In this document: one piece after another, positions 2,150 to 25,707 of the stretch | How the letters are laid out: each line of letters begins with the position of its first letter | Numbering within the stretch: position 1 is the first letter of the stretch | NCBI GenBank assembly: GCA_030038755.1 | Contig: JASHSK010000013.1 | Location: forward strand, 1-42,196 | DNA length: 42,196 nt | Direction of reading: 5' to 3' | From: Gammaproteobacteria bacterium | GTDB taxonomy: Bacteria; Pseudomonadota; Gammaproteobacteria; Steroidobacterales; Steroidobacteraceae | Notes under the pieces: generated by a model | Seen by the model: only the letters and a program-made list of their open reading frames with translations | The model's database searches: none | What the model was told of the DNA's origin: nothing | Program-made: the position numbers and the translations under genes

Positions 2150-2167
2150 GGGTGCTGGGTCCTTTTC

Positions 2168-3112: not shown

Positions 3113-3121
3113 TAGTTCGCC

Positions 3122-3889
3122 TCACGTTGCATGCTTCAGTCCGCGCAGATGCCGCCCACGCTCGCCACAGAAATAGGCGCGGATCCACGGATGAGGGTTG
3201 CGCATGATGCCCTCGAGCGTGTCACTGATCATGCGGCCGTCGACGATGACGCCGACGCGGTTACAGGTGCGGAAGATGCTGTCCAGATCATGCGTGACCA
3301 TGACGACGGTGAGCTTCAGCTCCTGATGCAGGTAAATCAACAGCTCATCGAAGGCCGCGGCGCCGATCGGGTCCAGTCCCGATGTCGGCTCGTCCAGCAG
3401 CAGCAGTGCCGGATCCAGCGCCAGCGCCCGCGCGAGCCCGGCGCGCTTGACCATGCCACCGGACAGCTCGGCCGGATACTTGCCGGCGGTGTCGGCGCTC
3501 AGACCCACGAGCTGCACCTTCAGCAGCGCGAGCTCCTCCAGCCCGCGCGCGGGCAATCGCAGGTGCTCGAGCATCGGCAGCTGCACGTTCTCGCGCACCG
3601 TCAGCGCGCTGAACAGCGCGCCCTGCTGGAAGGTGACGCCGACGCGGCCCTTGAGCGCAAAGCGCTGTGCGGCGCTCATGCCGGAGAGCTCCTGGCCGAG
3701 GAAGCGGACGGTGCCCGCGTCCGGATTGCGCAATCCGAGGATGGTCCGCAGCAGCACCGTCTTGCCCGCTCCGGAGCCGCCGACGATGCCGAACACCTCG
3801 CCGCGGTAGACCGACATGTCCAGGTCGCGGTGCACCGTCTGGCGCCCGAAGCGATTGACCAGGCCACGCACTTCCAGCAGCGCTTCCAT
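3122..3889 (-). CDS. MlaF-family ABC transporter ATP-binding protein
   Basis: A 255-aa ATPase subunit driving the MlaE/MlaD-type lipid transporter at the inner membrane. Visible motifs are Walker A GGSGAGKT, the Q-loop in TFQQGALF, the signature LSGGMVKRAGLARAL, Walker B ALLLLDEPTSGLDPI and the switch His in VTHD. The ATG at 3889 is chosen over an upstream in-frame start at 3934 because the upstream residues are Cys-rich and non-homologous, and because it lies 4 bp after the permease stop. LSGGMVKRAGLARA is typical of the Mla/Ttg2A branch rather than generic amino-acid importers. The fourth-residue Met in place of Gln in LSGGQ is normal for the branch. Confidence 0.93.
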   Translation of the reverse strand: MEALLEVRGLVNRFGRQTVHRDLDMSVYRGEVFGIVGGSGAGKTVLLRTILGLRNPDAGTVRFLGQELSGMSAAQRFALKGRVGVTFQQGALFSALTVRENVQLPMLEHLRLPARGLEELALLKVQLVGLSADTAGKYPAELSGGMVKRAGLARALALDPALLLLDEPTSGLDPIGAAAFDELLIYLHQELKLTVVMVTHDLDSIFRTCNRVGVIVDGRMISDTLEGIMRNPHPWIRAYFCGERGRHLRGLKHAT

Positions 3890-3893
3890 CACA

Positions 3894-11396: not shown

Positions 11397-11683
11397 ACGC
11401 CGCCGAACGATCCGGCGGCCAGCCCCTCCAAGGCCAAGGATATGCCCCACTCCACCGCGCCGCCGGCAGTCGCTTCGCCGGGAGCAGCCGCTCCAACAGC
11501 AGCCACCGCTCCTCCGGCAGCAGCCACCGCGCCGCCGGCAGTAGCCACCGCGCCGCCGGCAGTAGCCACCGCGCCGGACGCCACGGCTGCACCGCGACAG
11601 ATAGCCGCGCGGGCGCGAACGGGATTACGATCGCACCCGGGGCGGGGAGACGCCCCGCAGGCGCGCAGCCAGCCACGGCAGTC
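11397..11683. other. Intergenic region before gspA with low-complexity ORF
   Basis: A 287-bp gap. It holds the 21-bp tandem repeats and a possible 83-codon plus-strand ORF (11442-11693, Pro/Ala/Thr-rich) whose stop overlaps the gspA start. The ORF has no recognisable domain and may be noncoding repeat. No clear promoter was found; the segment from about 11600 is non-repetitive and presumably carries the gspA initiation region. Confidence 0.4.
11497..11580. repeat. Four 21-bp tandem repeats
   Basis: Four contiguous 21-bp units (11497-11517, 11518-11538, 11539-11559, 11560-11580), all containing AGCCACCGC; the third and fourth units agree over their first 18 bp. Because 21 is a multiple of 3, the plus-strand frame reads as a heptapeptide repeat, APPAVAT. 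Minisatellite-type array, likely to vary between strains. Confidence 0.85.
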
Positions 11684-13594
11684 ATGTACCTGACGTTCTT
11701 CGGTCTCGCGGAAAAGCCCTTCGCAATCACGCCCGATCCGCGCTACCTGTATCTGAGCGCGCGGCACGCGGATGCGCTCGCGCATCTGGTGTACGGCATC
11801 AACGAAGCCGGCGGATTCATCCAGCTCACCGGCGAAGTGGGCACCGGCAAAACCACCACGATCCGCTCGCTGCTGGCGCGCGCGCCGAAGAACGCCGAGA
11901 TCGCTCTGATCCTCAATCCGCGCCTCTCGCCGGCCGAATTTCTGCGCTCGCTGTGCGAGGAGCTCGGTCTGGGCATGAGCGACAGCGCCGAGAACAACCA
12001 CAAAGAGCTGGTCGACATGCTCAACCGTTACCTGCTGCGCATGCACGCGCAGGGGCGGCGCGTGGTGCTGATCGTCGATGAGGCGCAGAACCTGTCCCCC
12101 GAGGTGCTCGAGCAGATCCGGCTGCTGACCAACCTCGAGACCGAGACTCAGAAGCTGCTGCAGATCATCCTCATCGGTCAGCCCGAGCTGCGCGCGCTGC
12201 TGGAGCGCGAAGACCTGCGCCAGCTCGCCCAGCGCATCACCGGACGCTATCACCTCGACCCGCTGTCACGTGAGGAGAGCGTTGCCTACGTGCGCCACCG
12301 CCTGCGGGTCGCGGGGGCGACCGCGGAGATCTTCACGCGCGCGGCTCTGCGCGAGGTCTACCGCGTCAGCGCCGGCATCCCGCGAGTCATCAACATCGTC
12401 TGCGATCGCGCGCTGCTCGGCGCCTACACGCAGGATCTGCACTCCGTGCCGGCGCATCTCGTGCGCCGCGCCGGTGGAGAGGTCTTCGGCCATGAGCTCA
12501 CCCCCCGCTGGATTGCAGTGGCCGCCGGCGCCTTCGCCGCCGCGCTGCTGGCGGGTAGCGCGCTGGCGCTGTGGCATTACGCACCGCGCTGGCTGTCCAG
12601 GACCCCGCGCGTCGTGGAGACTCCCCGACGCCCGGCCGCGCTGCTCGACCCCGCCAGCCGGACCGACCTGGCCAGCCGGACCGACCTCGCCAGCAGCGCC
12701 GCGGCGGGCCAGCGTAGCGACGCCGGTGGCAGCAGCGCTGAGCTCGCGTACGGTGCCGCTGGCCGCCCCGCGTCCGCCACCGGGCCCGCACCTGTCACTG
12801 GGTCCGCACCCGCCGCCGGGTCCGCGCCCCCCGCCGGGTCCCCGCCGGCGCTGGCGGATGAATCGGACGGCGCAGGCGCCCCGGCAAAGCTCGCGCAGCT
12901 GCTGACCACCTATCGCGGCAGCACCGACACCGACAGCGCCTTCACCGCGCTGCTTGGGCTCTGGAAGGCGCACTACGACCGTGACAGTACCGACGGCTGC
13001 ACTCAGGCGATTGCACAGGGGCTGCAATGCCTCATGCAGCGCGGTTCGCTCGCGCAGCTGCGCTTGCTCAACCGCCCCGCCATCCTGATGCTCAATGACG
13101 ATGCCGGCACGCCTTATCAGGTGGTGCTCCGGGGCCTGGACGGAGACGACGTGCAGCTGCAGTTCGGCGCGCATACCGCGGATGTGAGCATCGCCGACCT
13201 GTCGCGCTATTGGTTCGGCGATTTCGTATTGCTGTGGCATCCCGCCGCCAGGGATCCGGCCGGACTTCACGAGGGCATGCGCGGTCCCCCGGTGCGCCGC
13301 CTGCGCTACCAGCTCGAGCGCTGGGGCGGGCTGCCGGACAGCGTGGCCAGCGCTGCGGGCGACACCGCGAGCGGCGGTGCCGGCGGCGCGCAGGATCACG
13401 GTGACGATTACGATGCCGGCCTCATGCATCTGGTCGAGCAGTTCCAGCGCGCCAATCGGCTGACGGTCGACGGCATCGCCGGCATCGAGACTCAGGTCGT
13501 GCTCGATGCGGTGCTGGCCGCTCCCGGCTCCCCACTGCTGCAGGCCCGGGTACAGTCGCGCCGCGGTACAGCGGCGTCCACTCGAGGCACGTAA
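11684..13594 (+). CDS. gspA: GspA/ExeA-type AAA ATPase of type II secretion
   Basis: A 636-aa inner-membrane protein that, with GspB, uses ATP and peptidoglycan binding to help the type II secretion secretin assemble through the cell wall. Domains in order: AAA ATPase (about 1-265) with Walker A GEVGTGKTTT (50-59) and Walker B VVLIVDEAQ (127-135); one TM segment (about 273-295); an Ala/Pro/Thr-rich periplasmic linker (about 310-390) with a duplicated 18-bp DNA unit at 12653-12688; a peptidase-C39-like domain (GTPYQVVLRGLDGDDVQLQF to YWFGDFVLLW); and a C-terminal peptidoglycan-binding domain (LVEQFQRANRLTVDGIAGIETQVVLDAVL). The start MYLTFFGLAEKPF is the family's conserved N-terminus. The stop overlaps the gspB ATG. 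No other T2SS genes lie in the window. Confidence 0.93.
   Translation: MYLTFFGLAEKPFAITPDPRYLYLSARHADALAHLVYGINEAGGFIQLTGEVGTGKTTTIRSLLARAPKNAEIALILNPRLSPAEFLRSLCEELGLGMSDSAENNHKELVDMLNRYLLRMHAQGRRVVLIVDEAQNLSPEVLEQIRLLTNLETETQKLLQIILIGQPELRALLEREDLRQLAQRITGRYHLDPLSREESVAYVRHRLRVAGATAEIFTRAALREVYRVSAGIPRVINIVCDRALLGAYTQDLHSVPAHLVRRAGGEVFGHELTPRWIAVAAGAFAAALLAGSALALWHYAPRWLSRTPRVVETPRRPAALLDPASRTDLASRTDLASSAAAGQRSDAGGSSAELAYGAAGRPASATGPAPVTGSAPAAGSAPPAGSPPALADESDGAGAPAKLAQLLTTYRGSTDTDSAFTALLGLWKAHYDRDSTDGCTQAIAQGLQCLMQRGSLAQLRLLNRPAILMLNDDAGTPYQVVLRGLDGDDVQLQFGAHTADVSIADLSRYWFGDFVLLWHPAARDPAGLHEGMRGPPVRRLRYQLERWGGLPDSVASAAGDTASGGAGGAQDHGDDYDAGLMHLVEQFQRANRLTVDGIAGIETQVVLDAVLAAPGSPLLQARVQSRRGTAASTRGT
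12653..12688. repeat. Duplicated 18-bp unit in the gspA linker
   Basis: GCCAGCCGGACCGACCTG at 12653-12670 and the same with a final C at 12671-12688. It encodes the repeated ASRTDL hexapeptide in the periplasmic linker of GspA. Confidence 0.8.
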
Positions 13595-14382
13595 TGTCCT
13601 TCATACTCGACGCTTTGAAGAAATCCGAGGCGGAGCGCCAGCGGCAGACGGGTCCAACGCTGCTCGAGCTGCGCATCACGCACCCGCGCCGCCGCTACCC
13701 GATCTGGGCGCTGGCTCTGGGCGGCCTGCTGGCGGTCAACGCGATCGTATTGCTGTTCGTGGTGCTGCACAGGCCCGCAGCCCCGGGCAGCGTCACCGGC
13801 GCGACGGCGGCCGCGACGGCGGGGGCGCCGACAGCCGCGTCCGGCGCGGCATCCGGTGTCGCTGCGCTTCCGGCCGTACCAGTGTCCGCGTCCGCAGGCC
13901 CCACTCCCGCAACTCCCTCCGCGAGGCTGGCTGCGACCGCGCAGGCAGCGACCGCGCAGGGTGCGACCGCGCAGGCGACGCCACCGCCGGACACCACGGA
14001 AAACGGGGCGGCAAGAACTTCGGTACCGCCGCTGGCCGGCAGCGGGGACAACCCGGCCGCAGCCAGCGCCACGCCACTGCAGAATCCCGCCGACGATGCG
14101 CCCGCAGTGATGCCCGCGAAGCCGGTCACGCCGGCGGATCTCGCCGCGCTGCCGACCCGCGCCTCATTGGGTGACCAGGTACCCGTGCTGCAGCTGAACA
14201 TGCTGGTGACCTCCAACCGTCCCGCGGACCGCTACGCGCTGATCAACATGCACCGCGTGCGCGAGGGGGACGTGTTGCCGGAAGGCGCACGGGTGCTGGC
14301 GATCACGCCGGACGGCGTGGCGATGGAGTACCACGGGCAGGACTTTCTGCTGCCTCGCGCCGATGCGCCGCCGTCACAGTAG
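13594..14382 (+). CDS. gspB: GspB-type general secretion pathway protein B
   Basis: A 262-aa partner of GspA. The N-terminus MSFILDALKKSEAERQR is the signature opening of GspB/ExeB proteins. One TM segment follows (about residues 33-57, YPIWALALGGLLAVNAIVLLFVVL), then a long Ala/Pro/Thr-rich periplasmic linker (about 60-185), and then the C-terminal T2SSB domain (VLQLNMLVTSNRPADRYALINMHRVREGDVLPEGARVLAITPDGVAMEYHGQDFLLPR). The ATG shares its A with the gspA TAA stop (TAATG), so translation is coupled. The linker includes three 15-bp DNA repeats at 13933-13977. Function by family: anchors the GspA complex to secretin assembly. Confidence 0.92.
   Translation: MSFILDALKKSEAERQRQTGPTLLELRITHPRRRYPIWALALGGLLAVNAIVLLFVVLHRPAAPGSVTGATAAATAGAPTAASGAASGVAALPAVPVSASAGPTPATPSARLAATAQAATAQGATAQATPPPDTTENGAARTSVPPLAGSGDNPAAASATPLQNPADDAPAVMPAKPVTPADLAALPTRASLGDQVPVLQLNMLVTSNRPADRYALINMHRVREGDVLPEGARVLAITPDGVAMEYHGQDFLLPRADAPPSQ
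13933..13977. repeat. Three 15-bp repeats in the gspB linker
   Basis: Units starting GCGACCGCGCAGG at 13933, 13948 and 13963, encoding repeated ATAQ-containing pentapeptides in the periplasmic linker. Confidence 0.8.
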
Positions 14383-14390
14383 CTTCGCAG

Positions 14391-14411
14391 CCGCGGCGTT
14401 GGACGCTGCGG
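14391..14411. terminator. Weak hairpin between convergent genes
   Basis: CCGCGGCGT, loop TGG, ACGCTGCGG: a 9-bp stem with one mismatch, lying between the gspB stop and the 3' end of the convergent reductase gene. There is no T-run, so a classical intrinsic terminator is doubtful; it could act as a bidirectional 3'-end hairpin. Confidence 0.25.
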
Positions 14412-14444
14412 CCGCGTGAGCCTGCGTAGGGGCGGCTGCCGCCG

Positions 14445-15692
14445 CTAGGCCGACTGCCTGACCAGGCTGTGCAGATCGAAACCCGCGTCGGCAATCTGCT
14501 CGGCCGTGGGCGACAGATCATTGTCGAGCAGGCGCTTGGCCAGCATGTGATCCGGGATGCGATTGAGAGAGTCCACCGCGATCAGCCGTCCGGCGCGCAG
14601 ATAAAAGGCTGAAAACGCCGGCTTCGCCACATCCCCGCGTACGATCACCTGATCGTACCCCTGGCTCAGTCCCGCCATCTGCAGCTTCACGTCGTATTGA
14701 TCGGACCAGAACCACGGAGTGGCATAGAACGGTCGCTCGCGTCCCATGAGCGCGGCGGCCGCCGACTTGCCCTGCTCGACGGCATTCTGCACCGACTCGA
14801 GCCGTAGCAGCCGCCCGTCCGCCAGCCTGCGCGCCGTGCAATCGCCCGCCGCGACGATCATCGGATCCGCGGTGCGCGAGCACTCATCGACGATGATGCC
14901 GCGCTCGCAGGGCAGGCCCGCCTCGGCTGCCAGGCGATCATCGGGCGTGACGCCGATGCCCACGACCACGCAACCGGCCGCGAATTCGCGTCCGTCGGCC
15001 GTGCGCACCATGGCCACGTGGCCCTCCCGGGTGCCCCGCAGCTCCGTGACCTGCGCATCGAACACGAACTGCACCCCGTGCGAGCGGTGCAGCTGCTCGA
15101 AGGCCTCGGAAACGATGGGAGCGGTCACGCGTGACATCAGGCGCGGCAGCCCTTCGAGCACGGTGACCGCGGCGCCGAGCTTGCGGGCGCCGGCAGCAAC
15201 CTCCAGGCCGATGAAACCGCCGCCGATTACCACCACCGGGCGCTGCTCGCTCGCGCAGCGACGGATGGCGGCGGCGATGGCCGCCGAATCGGCGATGCCG
15301 CGCAGGCACAGCACGCCCTGCAGCGTCGCGCCCGGCACCGGCAGCACGCGTGGCAATGAGCCCGTGGCCAGCGCTACCCGGCTGTAGCTCAGCCGCTCGC
15401 CGGAGGCCAGCTCCAGCGTGGTGCTGCCGCGATCCAGGCGCTCCACGCGCGCTTCGAGCTTCAACTCGATGCGGCGGCGCGCGAGCGCCTCGGCGCCGCG
15501 AATCGCCAGCGAGACGGGATTGCCGGCGTCGAACAGCCACTTCTTCGACAGCGGCGGACGCTGATAGGGCGGATGTGGCTCCTCGCCGATCAGCAGCAGC
15601 TCCCCGCCATAGCCCTCCTGGCGCAGCGATTCGGCGATCTGCACGCCGGCCTGTCCGGCGCCCACGATGATGATTGGTGCGTGCGAACTCAT
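14445..15692 (-). CDS. FAD-dependent ferredoxin reductase (putidaredoxin/rubredoxin reductase family)
   Basis: A 415-aa flavoprotein that passes electrons from NAD(P)H to a [2Fe-2S] ferredoxin. Visible: FAD motif VGAGQAGVQIAESL near the N-terminus, the family motif PYQRPPLSKKWL, the NAD(P)H motif VVIGGGFIGLEVAAGARKLG, VVGIGVTPDDRLA, the second FAD contact VAAGDCTARRL, and a C-terminal reductase domain (YDVKLQMAGLSQGYDQVIVRG). The ATG at 15692 is chosen because it opens the conserved first beta strand; a longer in-frame ORF to 15992 runs antisense through the ferredoxin gene region and is not conserved. The ferredoxin lies 92 bp upstream on the same strand, so the two make a natural pair. The electron acceptor oxygenase is not in the window. 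Confidence 0.93.
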   Translation of the reverse strand: MSSHAPIIIVGAGQAGVQIAESLRQEGYGGELLLIGEEPHPPYQRPPLSKKWLFDAGNPVSLAIRGAEALARRRIELKLEARVERLDRGSTTLELASGERLSYSRVALATGSLPRVLPVPGATLQGVLCLRGIADSAAIAAAIRRCASEQRPVVVIGGGFIGLEVAAGARKLGAAVTVLEGLPRLMSRVTAPIVSEAFEQLHRSHGVQFVFDAQVTELRGTREGHVAMVRTADGREFAAGCVVVGIGVTPDDRLAAEAGLPCERGIIVDECSRTADPMIVAAGDCTARRLADGRLLRLESVQNAVEQGKSAAAALMGRERPFYATPWFWSDQYDVKLQMAGLSQGYDQVIVRGDVAKPAFSAFYLRAGRLIAVDSLNRIPDHMLAKRLLDNDLSPTAEQIADAGFDLHSLVRQSA

Positions 15693-15784
15693 GTCACCTG
15701 TTCGACCTGTCGGATGGACTGTCTGTCGGATGGACTGCCGTACCGGCGCAGCGGGCTCTATCGGCGCGAGCTCCCGTGCGGCTC

Positions 15785-16108
15785 CTAGCTCTGCCGCTCC
15801 GGAAACTCTACCGTGAGTCCCTCGAGCTCCGGCCGCACGATCAGCTGGCAGGACAGCCGGCTGTTGTCGCGCCGCTCCGCCGCCACGTTCTGCAGCATCA
15901 GCCGCTCGTCCTCGCCCGGTGGCGGCAGCCGCTCGAGCCACGGGTCCTGCACGTAGCAGTGGCATGTGGCGCAGGCCATATTCCCGCCGCACTGCGCCTC
16001 GATGCCCTCGAGCCCGGCTTCCATGGCCGCGCTCATGACGCTGTGGCCCGTGGCCACCTCCAGGGTCACGGCGCGGCCGTCGGGCTCAATATACGTGACT
16101 CTTGCCAT
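15785..16108 (-). CDS. [2Fe-2S] ferredoxin (adrenodoxin/putidaredoxin type)
   Basis: A 107-aa electron carrier. The cluster ligands are seen as C-x5-C-x2-C in AQCGGNMACATCHCY plus the distal Cys in RLSCQLIV, the arrangement of adrenodoxin-type ferredoxins that serve cytochrome P450s and some dioxygenases. The start MARVTYIEPDGRAVTLEVATGHSVM is typical. It is upstream of the matching reductase on the same strand; transcription is probably joint although a 92-bp gap with a duplicated TGTCGGATGGACTG motif separates them. The Isc-type Fdx role is less likely because no isc genes are nearby. Confidence 0.93.
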   Translation of the reverse strand: MARVTYIEPDGRAVTLEVATGHSVMSAAMEAGLEGIEAQCGGNMACATCHCYVQDPWLERLPPPGEDERLMLQNVAAERRDNSRLSCQLIVRPELEGLTVEFPERQS

Positions 16109-16159
16109 GGCTGTCCCGCCTGACGAGGGGCAACGACCGCGGTGGCGGGCCGGCCCGCT

Positions 16160-16615
16160 TCAGGAGGTCAATTCCTTGCGAAACAGCGTCCAGCCCTCGT
16201 TGGGGTGGGCGCCGAAGCGGCGATAGAAGTCGATGGCGCTGCGGTTCCAGTCGAGCACAGCCCACTCGAGCCGACCGCAGCCGCGCTCCCGGGCCTGCCG
16301 CTCGAGCGACTGCAGCAGTGCGTTGCCGATGCCACGCCCGCGATACGCTGGCCGCACGTACAGATCCTCCACATACAGGCTCGGGCGACAAAGGAAAGTC
16401 GAGTAATTGTAAAAGTAGAGCGCATATCCGGCGACCGCATCTTCCCACAGCGCCAGCAGCGCCGCTGCGAAGCGCGGCTCGCCGAACAGGTGACGCTGCA
16501 AATCGTCTGCCTTACCCACCATTCGGTCGCGTAACCGCTCATAGTCCGCCAGCTCACCGATCATCTGGTAAATCACCGGCACGTCGGCCGCTTCCGCGGC
16601 CCGCAAGCGCAACAT
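16160..16615 (-). CDS. GNAT-family N-acetyltransferase (diamine acetyltransferase-like)
   Basis: A 151-aa acetyltransferase of the GNAT fold. The acetyl-CoA loop is clear in LYVRPAYRGRGIGNALL, preceded by YVEDLYV on strand beta 4, and followed by LEWAVLDWNRSAIDFYRRFGA. The combination GYALYFYNYSTFLCRPSLYVEDLYVRP is the pattern of spermidine/spermine or thialysine acetyltransferases, so a polyamine-like amine is the probable substrate; that level of specificity is inference. The gene reads in the same direction as the ferredoxin, 51 bp away, but no functional link is evident. Confidence 0.88.
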   Translation of the reverse strand: MLRLRAAEAADVPVIYQMIGELADYERLRDRMVGKADDLQRHLFGEPRFAAALLALWEDAVAGYALYFYNYSTFLCRPSLYVEDLYVRPAYRGRGIGNALLQSLERQARERGCGRLEWAVLDWNRSAIDFYRRFGAHPNEGWTLFRKELTS

Positions 16616-16774
16616 CGTCTGGCTCCCGTAGGACAGGCACCCGCAAGTGCCGCCGCCCGCACGCGGCGCACGTGGTGGGTGAGATACGTCACATTATCAG
16701 CCCCACGCACCGATCAGCGTCACAGTTCCTCGGCCACCGATGACGCACGCCATTGTGCCGCCGGGCAGAGGGCT

Positions 16775-16780
16775 TACAGT
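16775..16780 (+). promoter_or_regulatory. -10 element for the signalling cassette
   Basis: TACAGT followed by C, about 60 bp before the ATG at 16842. It matches the TANART-C pattern of other promoters in the window and would place initiation near 16787, downstream of the ATG at 16740, favouring the later start. No -35 is evident. Confidence 0.35.
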
Positions 16781-16841
16781 CCACTGGCTACCGAGGAGTC
16801 GGCCTGCCCCCGGCCGTAAACGCCCTGGAATCTTGAGCCGC

Positions 16842-17609
16842 ATGGAACCGCGAGCGCCGCTGCCCAATTCTGCCGCCGCGCCCCGGGCACTCGTCCCGCC
16901 CGCGGTCGTGTTCCCGTCCCCAGGCACCGCGCCGCTTGCCACGCCCGTCCCGACGATCGTGACGCTGTGCGAAGACCAGGCGCTGTTGCAGGCTGTGACC
17001 GTCGCCGCCGCCGAGCAGGCGGCCGTGATCAACTCGCCGACCCCCGACCGGTTCATAGATCAACTTGTCGCAAATGGCGCCGAAGTAGCAGTGATCGATG
17101 GTACAACTGCGCCGATTGTGATGACATCGTTTCTGATAGGTCTGCGCCGGCAGTTCCCCCAGCTGCGAGTGCTGGTGGCCGGTACAGCGATGCTGTACGA
17201 GGAGCTGCGCGCGCAGATCGCCGACGGGACGGTATTCCGCTTCGCGCACAAGCCCACCTCGGCCAAGAGGCTGAAGCTGCTGCTGATGGCGGCGCTGGGT
17301 GCCCATCCGCCGGCCCCCCCGGCGGCGGACGGCGTCACCGCGCGCGCTGCCGTGCCGTCTGCGACGCCCGCGACTGCGACGCCCGCGACTGCGACGGCCC
17401 CCGGCGCCGACCCCGGCGCGACTGACACGGCATCCGCCACCGGGGCCGTCGGCGAGAGTGCGGACGAGACTCGCGAGGCGATCGCTGCGGCCCCGCGCAC
17501 GCGGCCGCGCTGGCTCTGGCCGCTGCTGTTGTGCCTCGTGACGTGCGCAGCAATGCTGGTGGGCTGGTATGCGAGCAGCCTCGCCAGCCGGTGGCGCCTG
17601 CTGCCATGA
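16842..17609 (+). CDS. Receiver-like domain protein with C-terminal membrane anchor
   Basis: A 255-aa protein, first of a three-gene signalling cassette; no named family recognised. Residues about 38-150 look like a CheY-type receiver: acidic pair E44-D45 after strand 1, a possible phospho-Asp D86 in VAVIDG, RVLVAGT with T115, and HKP with K137. An Ala/Pro/Thr/Asp-rich linker follows (about 155-215, with 15-bp DNA repeats at 17361-17390), and then a single TM segment near the C-terminus (LWPLLLCLVTCAAMLVGWYASSLA), so the protein would be tail-anchored with the receiver in the cytoplasm. The start at 16842 is chosen over 16740 because of the putative promoter between them. The stop overlaps the next gene's ATG by 4 bp (ATGA). 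Confidence 0.75.
   Translation: MEPRAPLPNSAAAPRALVPPAVVFPSPGTAPLATPVPTIVTLCEDQALLQAVTVAAAEQAAVINSPTPDRFIDQLVANGAEVAVIDGTTAPIVMTSFLIGLRRQFPQLRVLVAGTAMLYEELRAQIADGTVFRFAHKPTSAKRLKLLLMAALGAHPPAPPAADGVTARAAVPSATPATATPATATAPGADPGATDTASATGAVGESADETREAIAAAPRTRPRWLWPLLLCLVTCAAMLVGWYASSLASRWRLLP
17361..17390. repeat. Duplicated 15-bp unit in a linker
   Basis: GCGACGCCCGCGACT repeated exactly at 17361-17375 and 17376-17390, with a partial third copy. Encodes repeated ATPAT in the linker of the receiver-like membrane protein. Confidence 0.8.
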
Positions 17610-18952
17610 ATCCGCGCGTGCTGATCGTGGATGCAGAGCGCGAGCTGCGTGTCTGGCTGCGGCACCACGTGGAGATTCTCTGGCCAGACGGCACTACGCT
17701 GGAGATGGAGCCCAACGGACTGGAAGAGGCCTATGCGCGTCATTCGTCGGCGCGCAACCTGGATCTGATCCTGCTGGGCCTGAGCTGCGGCGATGATCCC
17801 GGCTTGCCGAGCACCGGCCTCGAGCCCCTGCGGCGGCTGCTGCGCTTCGAGGAAGTCCCGCCGATCGTGGTCATCGCCCGCGGCGGCAATGAGCTGACGG
17901 CGGCGCATGCCATGCGGCTCGGTGCGGTCGATTACCTGCCGCGCCGGCTGCTCAATGCGCAGCGCCTCGCCACCTCGCTACGCCTGGGGCTGCGCAGGCG
18001 GCAGCGCGCCCTGGCGCATGCACGCACGCCGCGCCGCGGACTGGACGCGCTGCATCTGGCGCTGCCGCAGTACTCGATCGTGCGCCGCCTGGGTGAATCG
18101 GCGCGCGCCGCCGTGTATCTGGCGCACAGCGTGGTGCTCGGCCGTTACGTGGCGCTGAAGGTGACCAAGCCCACGGTGGCGACGAGTGCCGAGGGCTCAC
18201 GCGAGTTCTCGCGCGAATACGCCGCCATCTCGGCGATCCGTCACCCTTCCGTGGTGGAGATCTACGACTACGGCTACCACGCGGGGCGCGAGTTCATCGC
18301 CATGGAGTATTTCCCGTGTGGTGATCTGAAGACGCGACTGCTGCAGCCGATCACCATCACCGAGAGCCTCGAGTATGCGCAGCGCATCTGCGCGGCGCTC
18401 GCCGTGATTCATGCGGCGGGCCTGGTGCATCGCGACCTCAAGCCGCCCAACGTCATGCTGCGCCAGGACGGCTCGATCGTGCTGATCGACTTCGGGCTCG
18501 CGCGCGGCGTTGCGGGTGAGACGCTCAACACCGCCGCCGGCGTGCTGCGCGGCTCGCCCTATTACATGAGTCCCGAGCAGGCCCAGGGCCTGCCCCCCGA
18601 TGCGCGCAGCGACCTCTACAGCCTCGGGGTGATCCTGTTCGAGATGCTCAGCGGCTACAAACCCTACTCCGGCAGCAGCGCGGTCGAGGTGATCCATCAG
18701 CATGTGCGCGGTCAGCGCCCCACGCTGCCGACGGAGTGCAGCGCGCTCGAGCCGCTGCTGGACCGGCTGATGGCGGCCGAGCTCTCCGGGCGCTTCCCCG
18801 ACGCGCTCAGCGCCCAGCAGGCACTGCAGGCGGCCGCGGCGGCGTTGCCCGGAGTCGCGCCCGCGGCCGGCAACGTCGAGCAGAGCCTGTCGGGCGACCC
18901 GGGCGCCTCCCCGGCCATCGCACCGCTCGACGCCGCAGTGGGCCTGCCATGA
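17606..18952 (+). CDS. Ser/Thr protein kinase with N-terminal pseudo-receiver domain
   Basis: A 448-aa cytoplasmic protein. Residues 1-130 have the receiver fold (VLIVDAERELR with D9; LDLILLGLS; AVDYLPRR), but the position of the phospho-acceptor Asp is Gly58 and the conserved Lys-Pro is replaced by Arg, so it should not be phosphorylated in the usual way. Residues about 157-430 form a eukaryotic-type kinase: K185 in ALKVTK, catalytic loop HRDLKPPNV (275-283, D277), DFG (295-297), SPE (322-324) and DLYSLGVILFEMLSG. The glycine loop RLGESARAAV keeps only its first glycine. No TM or PASTA domain is present. The ATG overlaps the upstream stop (ATGA), and the CheA-like gene follows after 19 bp. 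Confidence 0.88.
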   Translation: MNPRVLIVDAERELRVWLRHHVEILWPDGTTLEMEPNGLEEAYARHSSARNLDLILLGLSCGDDPGLPSTGLEPLRRLLRFEEVPPIVVIARGGNELTAAHAMRLGAVDYLPRRLLNAQRLATSLRLGLRRRQRALAHARTPRRGLDALHLALPQYSIVRRLGESARAAVYLAHSVVLGRYVALKVTKPTVATSAEGSREFSREYAAISAIRHPSVVEIYDYGYHAGREFIAMEYFPCGDLKTRLLQPITITESLEYAQRICAALAVIHAAGLVHRDLKPPNVMLRQDGSIVLIDFGLARGVAGETLNTAAGVLRGSPYYMSPEQAQGLPPDARSDLYSLGVILFEMLSGYKPYSGSSAVEVIHQHVRGQRPTLPTECSALEPLLDRLMAAELSGRFPDALSAQQALQAAAAALPGVAPAAGNVEQSLSGDPGASPAIAPLDAAVGLP

Positions 18953-18971
18953 ACGCCGCCATGGGACTGCC

Positions 18972-20045
18972 ATGAGTGACGTCATGGCCCGAATCCTGCC
19001 CCCATCGGTGCAGCTGGAGCTCGAGACACTGCGCGATCAGCGCGACCTGTACCGCTCGCTGCTGCTGGCAGAGCCGGCGGCGCTGGCGGCTTTCATGACA
19101 CTGGCGCTCGACACCGTGGAGCGCATCCGCAGCTCGCTGCGCACTCCGACGCGCGACTCGGCCGCCTTTCGCGGCAAGATCGAGCGGCTGCTCGATGAGC
19201 TCACGGCCCTCGGTGAGGCGCTCGTCGGGCTGCATCTACCGACCGTCGATGCGCGGCTCGCCAGTGCGCTCGCCGCGCTGCGCGAGGTCGAGAGCCGACT
19301 CGCCGCCACCGGCAACGACCTGCTACCGGCGATGGTGGTGCTCGAGGAGCTGTGCAGCCACCTCACGGTGGCGGCCGACAGCGCGGCCGTGCACGTGCCG
19401 CTCGCCAGCCATGAGCCGGCCGCGCTCGACCTGGAATCCAGTCAGCGGCGCGCGCAGCTCAAGCTCGCGACCGCGCTCGAGCAGATGGCCCAGCGCTTTG
19501 CGGCGGACCATGGCAAGCGCGTAGGTCTGGTGACCATGGGCCTGGAGGACATCCCCGAGGAGTGGACCGGCACGCTGTTCGATCTGCTCAGCCAGCTGAT
19601 GCGCAACGCCATCGAGCACGGGATCGAGGAGGCGAGCGCGCGCGCCTCGCGCACCAAGCCCGCGATCGGCACACTGGTGATCGAATTCATCGACTGCGGC
19701 GCGCACGGCTTCGAGCTCAATGTGCAGGACGACGGCGGCGGCCTCGATGGCGATGGCATCGCCGCTGCGGCCGTCCGACAAGGCCTGGTGCCGCCGGAAG
19801 CCGCGCGCACACTGGATCCGACGCGACTCGTGAATTTGATATTTCAGCCGGGGCTGTCCACGGCGGCACCCAACGGTGATGGCCGGCGCGGTCAGGGTAT
19901 GTGCATCGTGCGTGACCATGTGCACCGGCTCGGCGGCCGGCTGCAGCTGTCCACCAAGCGCGGCCAGTTCACGCGCTATCGCATCAGCCTGCCGCCGCTC
20001 GACGGGGCGGCCGACGCCGCGGCCGAACAGCAGACGCACGGCTGA
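18972..20045 (+). CDS. CheA-like histidine kinase ATPase with degenerate Hpt region
   Basis: A 357-aa protein whose C-terminal half (about 160-342) matches the ATPase domain of CheA: N-box LSQLMRNAIEHGIE (N212), G1 box VQDDGGGLDGDGI (253-262), IFQPGLSTA, G2 box RRGQGMCIVRDHVHRLGG and a last strand TRYRISLPPL. The N-terminal half is helical. Residues about 50-130 resemble an Hpt domain, but where an HxxKG phospho-His motif is expected the sequence is T78-A-L-G, with no His. There is no CheW-like domain and no TM. It is last in the cassette with the receiver-like and kinase genes, 19 bp after the kinase stop, and converges on a minus-strand gene with a 1-bp gap. Activity as an autokinase is doubtful. 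Confidence 0.82.
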   Translation: MSDVMARILPPSVQLELETLRDQRDLYRSLLLAEPAALAAFMTLALDTVERIRSSLRTPTRDSAAFRGKIERLLDELTALGEALVGLHLPTVDARLASALAALREVESRLAATGNDLLPAMVVLEELCSHLTVAADSAAVHVPLASHEPAALDLESSQRRAQLKLATALEQMAQRFAADHGKRVGLVTMGLEDIPEEWTGTLFDLLSQLMRNAIEHGIEEASARASRTKPAIGTLVIEFIDCGAHGFELNVQDDGGGLDGDGIAAAAVRQGLVPPEAARTLDPTRLVNLIFQPGLSTAAPNGDGRRGQGMCIVRDHVHRLGGRLQLSTKRGQFTRYRISLPPLDGAADAAAEQQTHG

Positions 20046-20046
20046 C

Positions 20047-20562
20047 TCATCGCTGCGTGCGCCGCAGCAGCCGCGCCGCGCCCGGCAGCCGCAGTACGCC
20101 CAGCAGCAGCGACCATCCCAGCCGCGCCGCGCGCGGCACGGGCGGTGTCGGCACCGCGCCGAAGAATGCGGCACCGGCATCGCGATGCCACTGCACCGAG
20201 CGCGCCCGCAGCTCGAAGCTCCCCTCGCGCGCCTCGATGCGGTAGGTCGTCGCGGCGGCGGCAGTGGCAGCGGTGCCAGCGGTAGCGGCGGTAGCGGCGG
20301 TAGCGGCGGTGCCAGCGGTAGCGGCGGCGGTTGTGGCGGCCGACCGGCCGGTCATCGGCGCGGGGGACGGCGCTATCTGCCGCACCCGCACGTCATGCAG
20401 CTGCGCCGGCAGCGGCACCAGCGGATCCACCACCCCGGCGAACAGCAGCTCGGTATCACCCTCACGCCGCGCAGCGCGCAGGCGCAGAGCCATCGGACCG
20501 GCGCTGCGCCGACACTCGACGACTCCGTCGAAAACCGCGAGCTCGGCAGGCAAAGTGCTCAA
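20047..20562 (-). CDS. Hypothetical protein with Ala/Thr-rich insert
   Basis: A 171-aa product with no recognised domain. The first 70 residues read as a folded beta-rich segment (ELAVFDGVVECRRSAGPMALRLRAARREGDTELLFAGVV). Residues about 72-105 are an Ala/Thr/Gly stretch encoded by tandem repeats, and the tail (TYRIEAREGSFELRARSVQWHRDAGAAFFGAVP, then a hydrophobic LGWSLLLGVLRLPGAARLL) looks coding. The start is a TTG at 20562, which is uncertain. It lies downstream of the methyltransferase gene on the same strand, after an 87-bp repeat-filled gap, and could be co-transcribed. Coding is supported by sensible amino-acid composition on both sides of the repeat. Confidence 0.55.
   Translation of the reverse strand: MSTLPAELAVFDGVVECRRSAGPMALRLRAARREGDTELLFAGVVDPLVPLPAQLHDVRVRQIAPSPAPMTGRSAATTAAATAGTAATAATAATAGTAATAAAATTYRIEAREGSFELRARSVQWHRDAGAAFFGAVPTPPVPRAARLGWSLLLGVLRLPGAARLLRRTQR
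20251..20340. repeat. 9-bp GC-rich tandem repeats
   Basis: Imperfect array of GGTAGCGGC / GGTGCCAGC 9-bp units, encoding the Ala/Thr insert of the minus-strand hypothetical protein. Being a multiple of 3, changes in copy number keep the frame. Confidence 0.75.
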
Positions 20563-20577
20563 CGGCTGGCGACCACG

Positions 20578-20648
20578 TTCAGGCCAACACCCGGGTTCAA
20601 GCCAACACCCGGGTTCAGGCCAGCGACCAGGTTCAAGCCAGGCCCCGG
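20578..20648. repeat. Four 18-bp tandem repeats
   Basis: Units beginning TTCARGCC at 20578, 20596, 20614 and 20632 (last 17 bp); the first two differ by one base and read TTCAGGCCAACACCCGGG. They fill the gap between the methyltransferase stop and the TTG start of the downstream gene. Confidence 0.85.
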
Positions 20649-20649
20649 T

Positions 20650-21231
20650 TCACGCCGCAGCGTCCAGGTCCCAGAGGGTCAGGGGCACATCGCGCTTGAG
20701 CCACATGCCGCAACCGACCGGCAGAAAGGCGCGCGACAGCTCGCGTCGATACCAGCGCCCGCTGCGCAGTCCCGGGATGCGATCGGTGCGATCCTGATCG
20801 CAATTGTCACGCCAATCCTCGATCGTCAGCGCCCCGAAGTACAACAGACCCCGACACAGGCGCGCCAGATTCGCAATCGCGCGACGTGCCTGTGTGGCGG
20901 ACAGGTACTGCAGCACGTCGTAGCAGATGACCAGATCGAAGCGCTCGCTGGTGCGAAAGGTCTCGATCGAACCCTGTCGCCACCCGTAGCGGCTGCACAG
21001 GTAGTCGCTGCACTCCAGTCCGACATAATGCGCGCGCCGCAGTGTGCGCAGCAGCGGTGCGCGCAGCATTCCCACGCCGCAGCCGGCGTCGAGTATCTTC
21101 CCCACGGGCAGGCCCAGGTACTGTACGCAGCTCGCGATCAGCCGCGCGCGCGCGCGCATCTCCGAGCGCGAGGTGACCGCGGTGCGCGGGTTGAAGTAGA
21201 AGCGCTGATAGTAGGCGTGATCGAAGGGCAT
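20650..21231 (-). CDS. Class I SAM-dependent methyltransferase
   Basis: A 193-aa methyltransferase of unknown substrate. The AdoMet-binding motif I is clear in GKILDAGCGVGMLRAPLLRTL, followed by YVGLECSDYLCSRYGW (motif II, acidic residue at the strand end) and FDLVICYDVLQYL (motif III/IV). The N-terminus MPFDHAYYQRFYFNPRTAVTS resembles small-molecule or lipid methyltransferases that carry a YY-RFY opening. It is divergent from rimO, separated by 177 bp. The C-terminus ends directly before the 18-bp repeats. No pathway partner is adjacent, so the substrate cannot be named. Confidence 0.85.
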   Translation of the reverse strand: MPFDHAYYQRFYFNPRTAVTSRSEMRARARLIASCVQYLGLPVGKILDAGCGVGMLRAPLLRTLRRAHYVGLECSDYLCSRYGWRQGSIETFRTSERFDLVICYDVLQYLSATQARRAIANLARLCRGLLYFGALTIEDWRDNCDQDRTDRIPGLRSGRWYRRELSRAFLPVGCGMWLKRDVPLTLWDLDAAA

Positions 21232-21408
21232 GAGTCGCTGCTCCTGGCGGTGCCGCCGATCGCCGGCCGGGAGATCGCCGGCTGGGGGTCGCGCACGCGG
21301 TCGGGTACTATACGCGGCCCTGCGTTCGTCGGGTCTTGCCTCGGCGGCGCCCTGGGGAAGCAGAGCTTGCCTGGCGCCTGATCTGCGGTAACCGCATCAT
21401 TGAGGTCG

Positions 21409-22785
21409 ATGGTCACCAAAGCCGCTGCCCGCTCCACCCGTCCGGCCGTGCGCACCACAGGCAGGCGCGCGCCGGCGGTGGGATTCGTCAGCCTGGGCTG
21501 TCCCAAGGCGCTGGTGGATTCGGAGCGGCTGATCACACAGCTGCGCTCGCGCGGCTATGACATCGTGTCCGGATACGAGCAGGCCGATCTGGTCGTGGTC
21601 AACACCTGCGGCTTCATCGACGCGGCCATCGATGAGTCTCTCGACGCGATCGGCGAGGCGCTCGCGCACAACGGGCGCGTCCTGGTCACCGGTTGCCTGG
21701 GCGCACAGCCACAGCGCATCCTGGAGCGCCACCCGAAGGTACTCGGCGTCACCGGGCCGCATGCCTACGAGCGCGTGATCGCCGCGATCGACGAGCACCT
21801 GCCGCAACCTCACGATCCGTTCGCCGATCTGGTGCCGCCGCAGGGGCTGCGGCTGACACCGCGGCACTACGCGTACCTCAAGATCTCCGAAGGCTGCAAC
21901 AACCGCTGCAGCTTCTGCATCATCCCGCAGCTGCGCGGTGGCCTGCAGAGCCGGCCGCTCGATGAGGTGCTGCGCGAGGCCGAGCAGCTGGTGCGCGCCG
22001 GCGTGCGTGAGCTGCTGGTGATCTCGCAGGACACCAGCGCCTACGGCGCCGATCTGCGCTACCGGCAGGTATCCTGGGAACAGCAGTCATACCGCACGAA
22101 ATTTCTCGATCTGGCACGCGCCCTCGGAACGTTCGGGGTGTGGGTACGGCTGCACTATGTGTATCCCTACCCGCACGTGGATGAGGTCGTGGCGCTGATG
22201 GGCGAGCCCGGCGTGCTGCCGTACCTGGACATCCCCTTCCAGCACGCGAGCCCGGCGGTGCTGCGGCGCATGCGCCGGCCCGCGCATGCGGAGGACACGC
22301 TGCGGCGGATCGCCGCCTGGCGGCGCGCGCAGCCCGGGCTCATCCTGCGCAGCAGCTTCATCGTCGGCTTTCCGGGCGAGACCGATGCACAGTTCGAGGA
22401 GCTGCTGGCGTGGCTCGATGAGGCGCAGCTCGATCGTGTCGGCTGCTTTCAATACTCGAACGTCGCAGGCGCCGCGGCGAATGACCTCGACGACCCGGTC
22501 CCCGCCGCGCTCAAGGAGGAGCGCTACCGGCGCTTCATGGAAAAGGCCGCGCAGATCAGCCGCGCGCGCCTCGCCGCCCGCGTGGGACAGACCTGCCGCG
22601 TGCTGGTGGATGCCATCGAGGATGGCGTGCCCATCGCGCGCAGCGCGGGCGAGGCGCCGCAGATCGATGGTGTCGTGCGGCTGCGCGCCGCGCGTGGCGG
22701 CGCGCGCCGGCCCGCGGCGGGACAGTTCGCCGAGGTGCGCATCACCGCGGCGGACACCTACGATCTGTGGGCAGAGCCGGTCTGA
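21409..22785 (+). CDS. rimO: Ribosomal protein S12 methylthiotransferase RimO
   Basis: A 458-aa radical-SAM enzyme that adds a methylthio group to the conserved Asp of ribosomal protein S12. Domains: N-terminal UPF0004 domain ([18 protein letters not shown] with cluster Cys31, VVNTCGFID), radical SAM core with CNNRCSFC (C163, C167, C170) in [20 protein letters not shown], and a C-terminal TRAM domain. The [12 protein letters not shown] opening and RGGLQSRP distinguish it from MiaB. The ATG at 21409 is preferred to a TTG at 21400; an AGG lies just upstream. Transcribed from its own region, divergent from the methyltransferase gene. Confidence 0.96.
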
Positions 22786-22923
22786 GCGACTGCGACCGCG
22801 GCGCCTGGTACCGCCTCGCCCGCTGCCCATATCGGCCGGCACCGCGTAGCCTGCACCGCGTCGCGGAGTTGCGACCACGGTCACGGGGTCGCGGACCCTG
22901 CGGATGAATCCCTCCTGCGCCGC

Positions 22924-22929
22924 TATAAT
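22924..22929 (+). promoter_or_regulatory. Perfect -10 box just before the IorA-like start
   Basis: TATAAT followed by C, ending 7 bp before the ATG at 22937. Initiation would be expected at about 22936-22937, which would give a leaderless or nearly leaderless mRNA for the (2Fe-2S) subunit. No -35 and no Shine-Dalgarno sequence is visible between the box and the ATG. Confidence 0.5.
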
Positions 22930-22936
22930 CGAGCGG

Positions 22937-23398
22937 ATGCGGACATTCATGGTCAATGATCGCGCCGTCACGGTGGACGTGCCGGACCAGATGCCGTTGC
23001 TGTGGGTGCTGCGCGACGAGATCGGGCTGACGGGCACCAAGTACGGCTGCGGGCGCTCGCTGTGCGGTGCCTGCACGGTGACGGTCGACGGCCAGCCGGT
23101 GCGCTCCTGCGCGACGCCCGTGTCGGCTGTCGACGGCAAGGCGGTCGTGACCATCGAAGGGATCGGGGACGACAAGGTCGGCCTGGCGGTACAGGAGGCC
23201 TGGCAGCGCCTCGATGTCGTGCAGTGCGGATACTGTCAACCGGGTCAGATCGTCTCGGCCGTGGCGCTGCTGCGGGCCAATCCGCGGCCGAGCGATGCCG
23301 ACATCGATGTCGCCATGAACGGCTGCATCTGCCGTTGTGGCACGTACATGCGCATTCGCGCCGCCATCCACGAAGCGGCCAGGGCGCTGGCGGCTTGA
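22937..23398 (+). CDS. (2Fe-2S)-binding subunit of a molybdenum hydroxylase (IorA-like)
   Basis: A 153-aa small subunit carrying two [2Fe-2S] clusters. The plant-type cluster is in [13 protein letters not shown] (C38, C43, C46), and the second, xanthine-oxidase-type cluster is in [10 protein letters not shown] and CICRCGTY. Isoquinoline 1-oxidoreductase and aldehyde dehydrogenases with a two-subunit layout have this size. The ATG at 22937 ([15 protein letters not shown]) is used; an in-frame ATG at 22904 lies upstream of the promoter-like TATAAT. The stop overlaps the TTG start of the large subunit (TTGA). Electrons from substrate oxidation pass through this subunit, likely to a cytochrome. 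Confidence 0.93.
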
Positions 23399-25707
23399 AG
23401 CGCTCCGGGCAGAGCCGCGGGGCCGTCCGCCACGCGGGCCGACGGCATTTCCTGCGGAATGCCGGGGCGCTCACGCTGGGCTTCTATCTGGCGCCCTCCG
23501 CACTGCTGAAGCCGCGCGCCGCCGTGGCGCAGTCCGAGGATGCGGCGCCCGGGTCCACGGTCTTCGCGCCCAACGCCTTCGTGCGCATCCGCGCCGACGG
23601 CAGCGTGACGGTGATCGCGAAATATCTGGAGATGGGCCAGGGCGTGTTTACCGGTCTTGCGACCCTGCTCGCCGAAGAGCTGGATGCGGACTGGAACGAC
23701 GTGCTGGTCGAGGCCGCGCCGGCGGACGTGACACGCTACCTCAACAGCGCGCTCAACATGCAGGGCACCGGCGACAGCACCTCGATGGCGAGCGCCTATC
23801 AGCAGATGCGCCAGGCGGGAGCCACGGCGCGCGCCATGCTGGTGGCGGCAGCCGCGCGGCAGTGGAACGTGCCCGCCGACGGCATCACGGTAGCCAACGG
23901 CGTCGTATCGCACATGGCCTCGGGACAGCGCGCCGGCATCGGTGCCTTCGCCGGCGTGGCGGCCACGCTCCCGGTGCCGGCAGCGGTGCCGCTGAAGGAT
24001 CCGTCGCGATTCAAGCTGATCGGCAATCCGTTCGTGCGTCGCAAGGACTCGCGCGCCAAGGCGCGCGGCTCGGCGCTGTTCACGCACGACCTCAAGCTCC
24101 CGGATATGCTGATCGCGATCGCGGCACACCCGACGCGCTTCGGAGCCACGGTGCGCGGCTTCGATGCCACGGCCGCGAAGGCGATCGACGGGGTCGTCGA
24201 CGTGGTGCAGTTCGCCGGCGGCGAGCATTACTTCGGCGGCGTTGCCGTTCTGGCGACCAATACCTGGATCGCACAGCAGGGTCGCGACGCGCTGCGCATC
24301 CAGTGGGATGAGTCGCACGCATCCCACGCCGACAGCGAACAAATACTGGCGCGCTACCGCATGCTGGCGCAATCGCCGGGCGGCAGCTCGGACCGGCAAT
24401 CACAGCCGGCGGACCCACCACAGACCGTGCAGCCACCCGTGAGCGTCGCGCGCAGCAGCGGCGATGCCGGCGTGCTGCAGTCGGCACAGCTGCAGCAGGT
24501 GGAGGCGCTCTACGAGCTGCCGTACCTGGCGCATGCGGCGATGGAGCCGATGGACTGCCTGGTACAGCTGACGGACGGCGGCGTAAGCATCTGGAACGGC
24601 GAGCAGCTGCAGACGGCCGATCAGGCGGCGATCGGCAAGCTCCTGGGCATCGCCCCCGAGCAGGTGCACATCACGCAGCTGTACGCAGGCGGCAGCTTCG
24701 GGCGGCGCGCCAATCCGCACGCCGACTATCTGCTGGAGGCGGTGTCGATCGCGCAGGCCGCCGCCGCCGCGGGCCATCGCGTGCCGATCAAGCTGTCGTG
24801 GACACGCGAGGACGACATGCGTGCGGGCTATTACCGCCCGGCGTTCGTGCACGCGATCCGCGCCGGACTGGACAGCAGCGGCGCGCTCGTCGCCTGGCAG
24901 CAGCGCTCGGTCGGGCAGTCGGTGCTCGCGGGCTCACCGTTCGACTCACAGATCAGGGACGGCGTGGACCCGAGCTCGATCGAGGGCTCGGCAGAGCCAT
25001 ACGAGATCGCCAATGTTCGGATCGAGCTGGTCACGCCTGCGGACGTCGGCGTGCCCGTGCAGTGGTGGCGCGCGGCGGGCCACTCGCACACCGCCTTCGC
25101 CACCGAATGCATGATCGATGAGCTCGCCACCGCCGCGGGCGCCGATCCCTATCAGTTCCGGCGCGGGCTGCTGGCCGCGCATCCGCGCGCGCTCGCTTCG
25201 CTGGATCTGGCGGCCGCGCGCGCCGGCTGGGGCACTGCGCTGGCCGCCAGCGGCCCACAGGATCGTCGTGGCCGGGGCATCGCGCTGCATGAGTCATTCG
25301 GCACCTGTGTGGCACAGGTCGCGGAGATTACCGTCGCCCCCGACGGACAGCTGCGCGTCGACCGTGTCGTCTGTGCCGTGGACTGTGGAACGCCGATCAA
25401 TCCAAACGTCATCACCGCGCAGATGCAGGGCGCCATCGCCTTCGGGCTCGCCGCGGCGCTTCACCAGGCGGTGACACTGGTCGACGGCGTCGTGCAGCAG
25501 GGCAACTTCGACACCTATGCGCCGCTGCGCATCGCGCAGATGCCGGCGGTCGAGGTCTTCATCGTCGCCTCGCACGCGCCGCCCACCGGCGTGGGCGATC
25601 CGGGCGCCCCGCCGATCGCGCCGGCGCTCGTCAATGCCATCTTCAACGCGACCGGGCAGCGCATCCGCCGGCTGCCGATCGGCGAGCGGCTCACGCCGGT
25701 CAGCTAG
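23395..25707 (+). CDS. Molybdopterin-binding large subunit, IorB-like, Tat-exported
   Basis: A 770-aa catalytic subunit of an isoquinoline 1-oxidoreductase/aldehyde oxidase-like enzyme. The N-terminus carries a twin-arginine signal, [24 protein letters not shown], so the enzyme is exported folded with its partner. Core motifs seen: [31 protein letters not shown]-like [88 protein letters not shown] and the C-terminal [19 protein letters not shown] with the family's active-site Glu region. I place the start at TTG 23395, overlapping the previous stop; a much longer ORF in this frame overlaps the small-subunit gene and is spurious. Its stop shares CTAG with the convergent mtnK. Confidence 0.92.

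Follow-up and report, generated by a model that had tools for sequence, protein, structure and literature searches.

A pseudo-receiver Ser/Thr kinase and a His-less CheA-like protein in Steroidobacteraceae, possible descendants of a histidine kinase-CheY-CheX operon

Results

The stretch of DNA analyzed in the present study (the window) comprises 42,196 nucleotides of contig JASHSK010000013.1 (assembly GCA_030038755.1) from a gammaproteobacterium of the family Steroidobacteraceae. It contains a cassette of three genes on the forward strand. P1 (16842..17609, 255 aa) has a receiver-like domain and a C-terminal hydrophobic helix, and is an apparently truncated relative of longer receiver-like proteins that end in a TonB_C domain. 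P2 (17606..18952, 448 aa) links an apparent pseudo-receiver to a Ser/Thr kinase of the Hanks type, and P3 (18972..20045, 357 aa) joins a His-less helical bundle, putatively derived from a histidine phosphotransfer (Hpt) domain, to an ATPase of the CheA P4 type, without a CheW domain. P1 and P2 overlap by 4 bp, and 19 bp separate P2 from P3. A preliminary description of the locus had given the same layout and the same residues (G58 and R113 of P2, T78 of P3, D86 and K137 of P1). A canonical phosphorelay has a phospho-His and a partner receiver with a phospho-Asp; the cassette has neither.

The kinase domain of P2 (Pfam Pkinase, 141 bits, cut-off 31.7) occupies about residues 155-412 (18068..18841) and carries K185, H275-R276-D277, N282 and D295-F-G; the VAIK Lys, HRD Asp, Asn and DFG of a Hanks-type kinase are all present. 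In the P2 copies linked to P1 and/or P3 these residues are found wherever letters are available, apart from R276 (60/63). The receiver part (residues 5-121) scores below the Pfam cut-off (Response_reg, PF00072; 22.5 bits, cut-off 30.2; E = 1.4e-4), and in the alignment its phospho-Asp position is Gly58 (codon 17777..17779) and its Lys position R113. Residue 58 is never Asp in the 64 linked copies (64/64), nine of which adjoin a His-bearing kinase with CheY and have F, V or I at this position. Asp does occur in 13 sampled P2 homologues, all linked to neither P1 nor P3. The idea that this Asp marks a two-component neighbour found no support: with the two profiles used, a receiver or histidine kinase gene was detected next to only 3 of the 31 Asp-bearing rows. 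Pfam detected neither PASTA nor any other sensor domain in P2. At E <= 1e-70, P2 was matched in 138 of 217 genomes of the family. The view that the Ser/Thr kinase is the sole complete catalyst of the cassette is supported, and since P2 is the only such catalyst, it is likely to be the output of the cassette.

The C-terminal part of P3 (about residues 157-342, 19440..19997) is an ATPase domain (HATPase_c, 38.9 bits, cut-off 26.4), closest to CheA P4 by family score as well as by fold. A VIA comparison of P3 residues 154-345, with the helical bundle outside it, gave Z 23.1 for CheA P4 (root-mean-square deviation 1.7, 171 residues), and BCKDK structures stood further down the list (Z 14.0). In the AlphaFold2 model (mean predicted local distance difference test score, pLDDT, 80; alignment of 5 sequences), a bundle of five helices (11-138) precedes the ATPase domain. 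A single helix (157-179) lies before P4, and no Pfam match was obtained for the CheA dimerisation domain. Nor did Pfam find a CheW-like P5 domain in P3, which ends 15 residues past HATPase_c. Having kept the ATPase domain and lacking the His, P3 is a putative pseudo-histidine kinase.

The N-terminus of P3 has no Pfam match, and the phospho-His position of its Hpt-like domain is, by alignment, Thr78 (codon 19203..19205). Judging from its homologues, this bundle is most probably Hpt-derived, as had been proposed. In a profile-profile comparison (hhalign), 41 His-less N-termini (37 after filtering) matched 47 His-bearing Hpt regions with a probability of 99.9 (E = 2.7e-34, 117 columns), and three column-shuffled control profiles gave 0.2-0.5; the two sets came from a single joint alignment, and hhalign aligned them anew. 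The Pfam Hpt cut-off (24.6) is passed by the His-bearing homologues L104 (30.8) and L237 (32.0). Among the 42 homologues from loci of the window type (see below), position 78 holds D in 18, R in 6, T in 4, S, A and V in 3 each, Q in 2, and E, G and H in 1 each. Thr78 as a conserved phosphosite was therefore rejected, T or S being present in only 7/42, and a conserved phosphosite at position 78 seems unlikely. The DDG motif of the ATPase is intact in 40/40 readable copies of such loci, and the G2 GxG pattern is present in 33/40. The P3 frame, measured from stop to stop, is 539-742 aa long in genus g10, 493-686 aa in g21 and 367-449 aa in g1 (L153 left out).

The counts for loci refer to a sample of 127 Steroidobacteraceae loci picked from match lists, rather than to all genomes; seven loci that repeat larger regions were omitted. 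A block of P2 and P3 without CheY was found in 42 of the 127, including the window, in five genera (g7, 17; g1, 11; g21, 8; g10, 4; g3, 2). The His is missing in 41 of these 42, and the remaining one, L162, has a His without the K-G part of the motif. The proposal that the relay is dismantled thus holds across the block loci, where the Asp of P2 is found in 0/42 and a motif-bearing His in 0/42 (one bare His). CheX is likewise present in 0/42. At least 500 bp follow P3 in 36 of the 42 loci, and about 1 kb or more in 34. The absence of CheY is scorable in those 36, and not in L153, L160, L161, L165, L179 and L286, which have less than 500 bp after P3; that of CheX is not scorable in the same six loci plus L278 and L279. 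Among the P3 homologues that are linked to P2 and lack CheY, L162 (7919-9040) alone has a His at position 78, within the sequence VHGLRERA. P1 lies upstream in 9/42 block loci, with the TonB_C end in all eight besides the window. Thus, as a conserved block, the pair of P2 and P3 is kept in 42 loci, but the trio proposed in the preliminary description is found in only nine, window included. None of the three outcomes that it had named as contrary (block homologues that keep the Asp and His, genes not conserved together, an N-terminus of P3 unlike Hpt) appeared.

In 51 of the 127 loci, a kinase with Hpt and CheA P4 domains is followed by CheY, and these loci represent what we regard as the parent operon. 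Its order is a receiver-like/TonB_C protein, sometimes a pseudo-receiver Ser/Thr kinase, the histidine kinase, CheY and CheX, and a Pfam search confirmed these parts. CheY keeps D and K in 51/51 and CheX is present in 51/51. HxxKG is kept in 47/47 of the loci with a readable Hpt region; L110, L113, L115 and L117, without this region, are outside the His count. The receiver-like/TonB_C gene was found in 45/51 (with the TonB_C end in 42), and the other six hold little sequence past the kinase, or none of this gene. A P2-type kinase lies between it and the histidine kinase in 9/51. Many P3-like regions elsewhere in the family belong to frames of some 700-850 aa whose C-terminal end carries HxxKG and the ATPase. 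The part of the parent kinase before Hpt is without a Pfam domain in L104, L185 and L237, and by eye it may be membrane-bound. PAS, membrane and TPR segments of the parent proteins are for the most part readings by eye; Pfam found no PAS in these three loci, and in L237 it found TPR only below the cut-off. One example of the parent operon is L237 (1212-7685); with the 50 further loci it is distributed over 17 genera of the sample, and we found no name for it. The presence of the His matches that of CheY with two exceptions, namely L107, with His and CheX and without CheY, and L162, with His and P2 and without CheY. In L107 (778-1224), alone in the sample, CheX follows a His-bearing kinase and no CheY was found. 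The genome of the window holds one contig with HAIKGEA and without an ATPase end (L298), and another with an ATPase end followed by CheY (L297).

P1 has a receiver-fold domain at residues 38-153 (16953..17300), which includes D86 and K137. Its AlphaFold2 model (mean pLDDT 72, alignment of 8 sequences) shows five strand/helix units in this region, at pLDDT 76-94 per ten residues, and the top matches of P1 in Foldseek are receivers (2jk1, E = 4.2e-7). No Pfam family, PF03544 (TonB_C) included, was matched by P1. The C-terminal helix (residues 225-252, 17514..17597) is a putative membrane anchor, as read from its hydrophobicity. In relatives of P1 the same domain is followed by a long part ending in TonB_C, which Pfam found in 5/5 long relatives scanned; the P1 of the window ends right after the hydrophobic helix, and the TonB_C part is absent. 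P1, first described as a tail-anchored receiver-like protein, is not purpose-built as such and appears to be a truncated remnant of the TonB_C protein. Nor does D86 establish that P1 can be phosphorylated, because the family lacks the acidic pair of a receiver. At the first position of this pair, T or S stands in 61/62 P1 copies and C in the window, the second position is variable, and residue 137 is K in only 25/63 copies with letters. The Asp at residue 86 itself is kept in 62/62 copies with letters, despite the unconserved acidic pair. In the nearest relative, G009, P1 (L148, 3975-4367) has kept its N-terminus and hydrophobic tail and lost the receiver domain. To find a receiver fold in a TonB_C protein is in itself unusual.

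Between the window and G009, the ratio of nonsynonymous to synonymous substitution rates (dN/dS) is 0.147 for P2 and 0.146 for P3 (0.178 for the Hpt-like part of P3), and in those same-genus copies that no contig end interrupts, the P2 and P3 frames are open. P2 and P3 are a maintained system under purifying selection. For the P1 receiver, dN/dS is 0.30 against G008 and 0.54 against G004, and 0.147 for G008 against G004; P1 evolves faster in the line of the window.

The cassette is preceded by genes for an ExeA/GspA-like ATPase with a peptidoglycan-binding domain (11684-13594) and for T2SSB/GspB (13594-14382), both on the forward strand. It is followed by a methyltransferase gene (20650-21231, reverse strand) and by a gene on the forward strand (21400-22785) which, from its sequence and without a family search, we take to be RimO-like. 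Pfam identified the first three of these, and the surroundings are partly shared with other block loci. ExeA or GspB was found upstream in 18/21 scanned loci of g1, g10 and g21 (not in L091, L151 and L156) and in 0/6 of g3 and g7. The methyltransferase is downstream in 8/11 loci of g1, 5/8 of g21 and 0/2 of g10, several contigs ending earlier. As the preliminary description had noted for CheW and methyl-accepting proteins, neither of these was found, nor CheY, among the open reading frames scanned with Pfam, which are a part of all those in the window; a CheY profile had no match in the open reading frames of at least 80 aa within 11001-26000. Farther away, Pfam identified Mla/MCE-type transport genes (ABC_trans_aux, MlaD, ABC_tran) on the reverse strand at 1418-3934.

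Discussion

The cassette and the parent operon share homologous genes in a corresponding order, and they differ in the residues on which phosphotransfer depends. We tentatively favour, with slightly less than even confidence, the reading that the cassette descends from the TonB_C/Ser-Thr kinase/Hpt-CheA-P4/CheY/CheX operon as a derived form without phosphotransfer, in which P3, as an ATP-binding pseudo-histidine kinase, would gate P2 by contact with its pseudo-receiver. CheY and CheX would have been lost from the parent operon, the histidine kinase would have lost its phosphoacceptor His (now Thr78) together with its long N-terminal part, and P1 its TonB_C part. What was kept would be the ATPase-bearing P3 beside a catalytically intact Ser/Thr kinase with a pseudo-receiver. 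P3, its shape set by a nucleotide or a ligand, would dock on the pseudo-receiver and switch the Ser/Thr kinase, and the output would be the phosphorylation of target proteins by P2. CheA-type domains bind receivers in known systems, and the pseudo-receiver would for this reason be a natural dock for P3, in a manner resembling that of CheA-type domains on receivers. His-to-Asp transfer between these positions of P3 and P2 is excluded, since P2 has no Asp and P3 no His. Contact is the simplest link between the two proteins, because the pair stays together in 42 loci and both are under purifying selection. Taken together, this points to the conversion of a phosphate relay into a switch that works by contact.

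The nine loci that pair an Asp-less P2 with a His-bearing kinase and CheY suggest that the Asp was lost before the His. Coupling between the histidine kinase and P2 therefore need not use the Asp of P2. On the P2 tree (84 rows) the Asp requires two changes. One reading of the order of events, others being possible, is that the Asp was lost first, that a single loss of the His with CheY and CheX followed, and that P3 later disappeared from some P2 loci. It is possible, although we consider it doubtful, that a His-Asp operon was converted in this way to a phosphotransfer-free one, with an ATP-bound, His-less CheA-like protein directly gating a Hanks-type kinase via its pseudo-receiver and with the intermediate (His and CheY, Asp-less receiver kinase) still living in the nine sampled loci.

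Several observations weigh against a contact switch of this kind. On the P3 tree (88 rows, L153 and L179 left out because of contig-end cuts; both the P3 and P2 trees are unrooted) one change splits the His-bearing from the His-less copies, with a Shimodaira-Hasegawa-like approximate likelihood ratio test (SH-aLRT) value of 92 on a branch that is not starred. The 42 and 47 loci are thus not independent, the loss of the His being a single change. Two changes are needed if the bare His of L162 is counted. Repeated independent co-loss of the His and CheY was considered and rejected, because of this one change and because the independent-pairs test has only 2 pairs. On the P2 tree, the 41 P2 copies with a His-less P3 need five changes, and starred branches force four of these; on several occasions P3 was either gained next to P2 or lost. 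P1 and P2 occur with no P3 found in 13 loci, two of which (L174, L176) hold less than 450 bp after P2. GxG is missing in 7/40 readable block copies, and for this reason ATP binding may be lost in those P3 copies. A profile of 30 His-less N-termini alone matched no CheA P1 structure. Finally, dN/dS of P2 and P3 between the window and G010, G008 and G004 is higher than against G009 (0.30-0.40, and 0.40-0.45 for the P2 receiver).

Some of these points would be explained if P3 were a scaffold or passenger, with P2 constitutive or under the control of P1 or another signal, and with P4 kept only as a fold. The loci without P3, its several gains or losses and the missing GxG all speak for this. However, in the comparison with G009 the dN/dS of P3 is no higher than that of P2, the two genes are adjacent in 42 loci of five genera, and the DDG motif is kept in every readable block copy, so that we consider this explanation rather unlikely.

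By analogy, P3 could also be one half of a split histidine kinase, its P4 domain phosphorylating in trans the Hpt domain of a paralogous His-bearing kinase. CheA3 and CheA4 of Rhodobacter sphaeroides, described in PMC6829392, are a precedent for split kinases, and resemble P3 in having a kinase domain that works without its own phospho-His. The P4 motifs are mostly intact in P3, and the genome of the window does hold pieces of a His-bearing kinase on the two contigs mentioned above, possibly parts of one gene. However, CheA4 has a partner with the His domain in trans, and no second, His-bearing copy was found among the candidates listed for the eight g21 genomes with P2 and P3 (the best nine first-look candidates per genome; G233 and G238 are 84-85% complete). 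At E <= 1e-36, no match was obtained in G034, G233, G236 and G238; G234, G235, G237 and G239 had one each, which in G234, G235 and G237 is the block copy itself. A split kinase is thus an unlikely explanation.

GHKL-type kinases such as BCKDK phosphorylate Ser. Another acceptor, namely Thr78 or another Ser/Thr phosphorylated by P2 or by P3 itself, might therefore be considered, and BCKDK structures do appear in the fold list of P3 at Z about 14, with T or S at position 78 in seven block homologues. However, this position is mostly another residue, above all D (18/42) or R (6/42), and CheA P4 is the closer fold (Z 23.1 against 14.0); we regard this possibility as improbable. That the three genes are relics heading for loss is very improbable, since the truncation of P1 in the window, the lost receiver in G009, the failure to find P1 in seven further same-genus loci with P2 and P3 (L091, which starts 41 bases before P2, is unscorable) and the raised dN/dS of the P1 receiver stand against the open frames of P2 and P3 and their dN/dS of about 0.15 in the comparison with G009.

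In comparison with known systems, the cassette is like the CheA/CheY/CheX system in that the ATPase of P3 is a CheA P4 domain and that the parent kinases, with Pfam Hpt domains in the two tested, precede CheY and CheX. Unlike that system, the block has no CheW domain, phospho-His, CheY or CheX, and a Ser/Thr kinase adjoins. P2 is like the Hanks-type kinases PknB and StkP in its kinase domain with the catalytic residues and unlike them in its N-terminal pseudo-receiver and in that no PASTA or other sensor domain was found. DivL regulates the histidine kinase CckA without phosphotransfer of its own. As a histidine-kinase relative that regulates another kinase, this pseudo-histidine kinase (named in PMC9430884) resembles what is proposed for P3; however, its partner is a histidine kinase, whereas the neighbour of P3 is a Ser/Thr kinase that P3 would control. 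Pseudo-receivers and pseudo-histidine kinases are known kinds of bacterial proteins, and P2 without the phospho-Asp and P3 without the phospho-His belong with them; according to the accessible part of one survey, the phosphorylation site is missing from 2.0% of the receivers and 0.9% of the Hpt domains (PMC12632262). Compared with the cases in that part of the survey, which names no pair of this kind, the present operon is pseudo on both sides, and its pseudo-receiver shares one protein with a Hanks-type kinase. The His-bearing parent operon, moreover, survives in relatives of the window. Among the titles and abstract openings covered, with few subscription papers, we found no pseudo pair with a Ser/Thr kinase that comes from a surviving TonB_C-histidine kinase-CheY-CheX parent.

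Conclusions

One operon set unites a candidate regulator of a pseudo-receiver, its would-be target enzyme, and extant forms that have or lack the phospho-His; the control of a pseudo-receiver is therefore testable in this family. The cassette may represent a path by which two-component signalling could give way to Ser/Thr signalling and, if the proposal is true, would reveal a means of controlling a receiver domain that has no aspartate.

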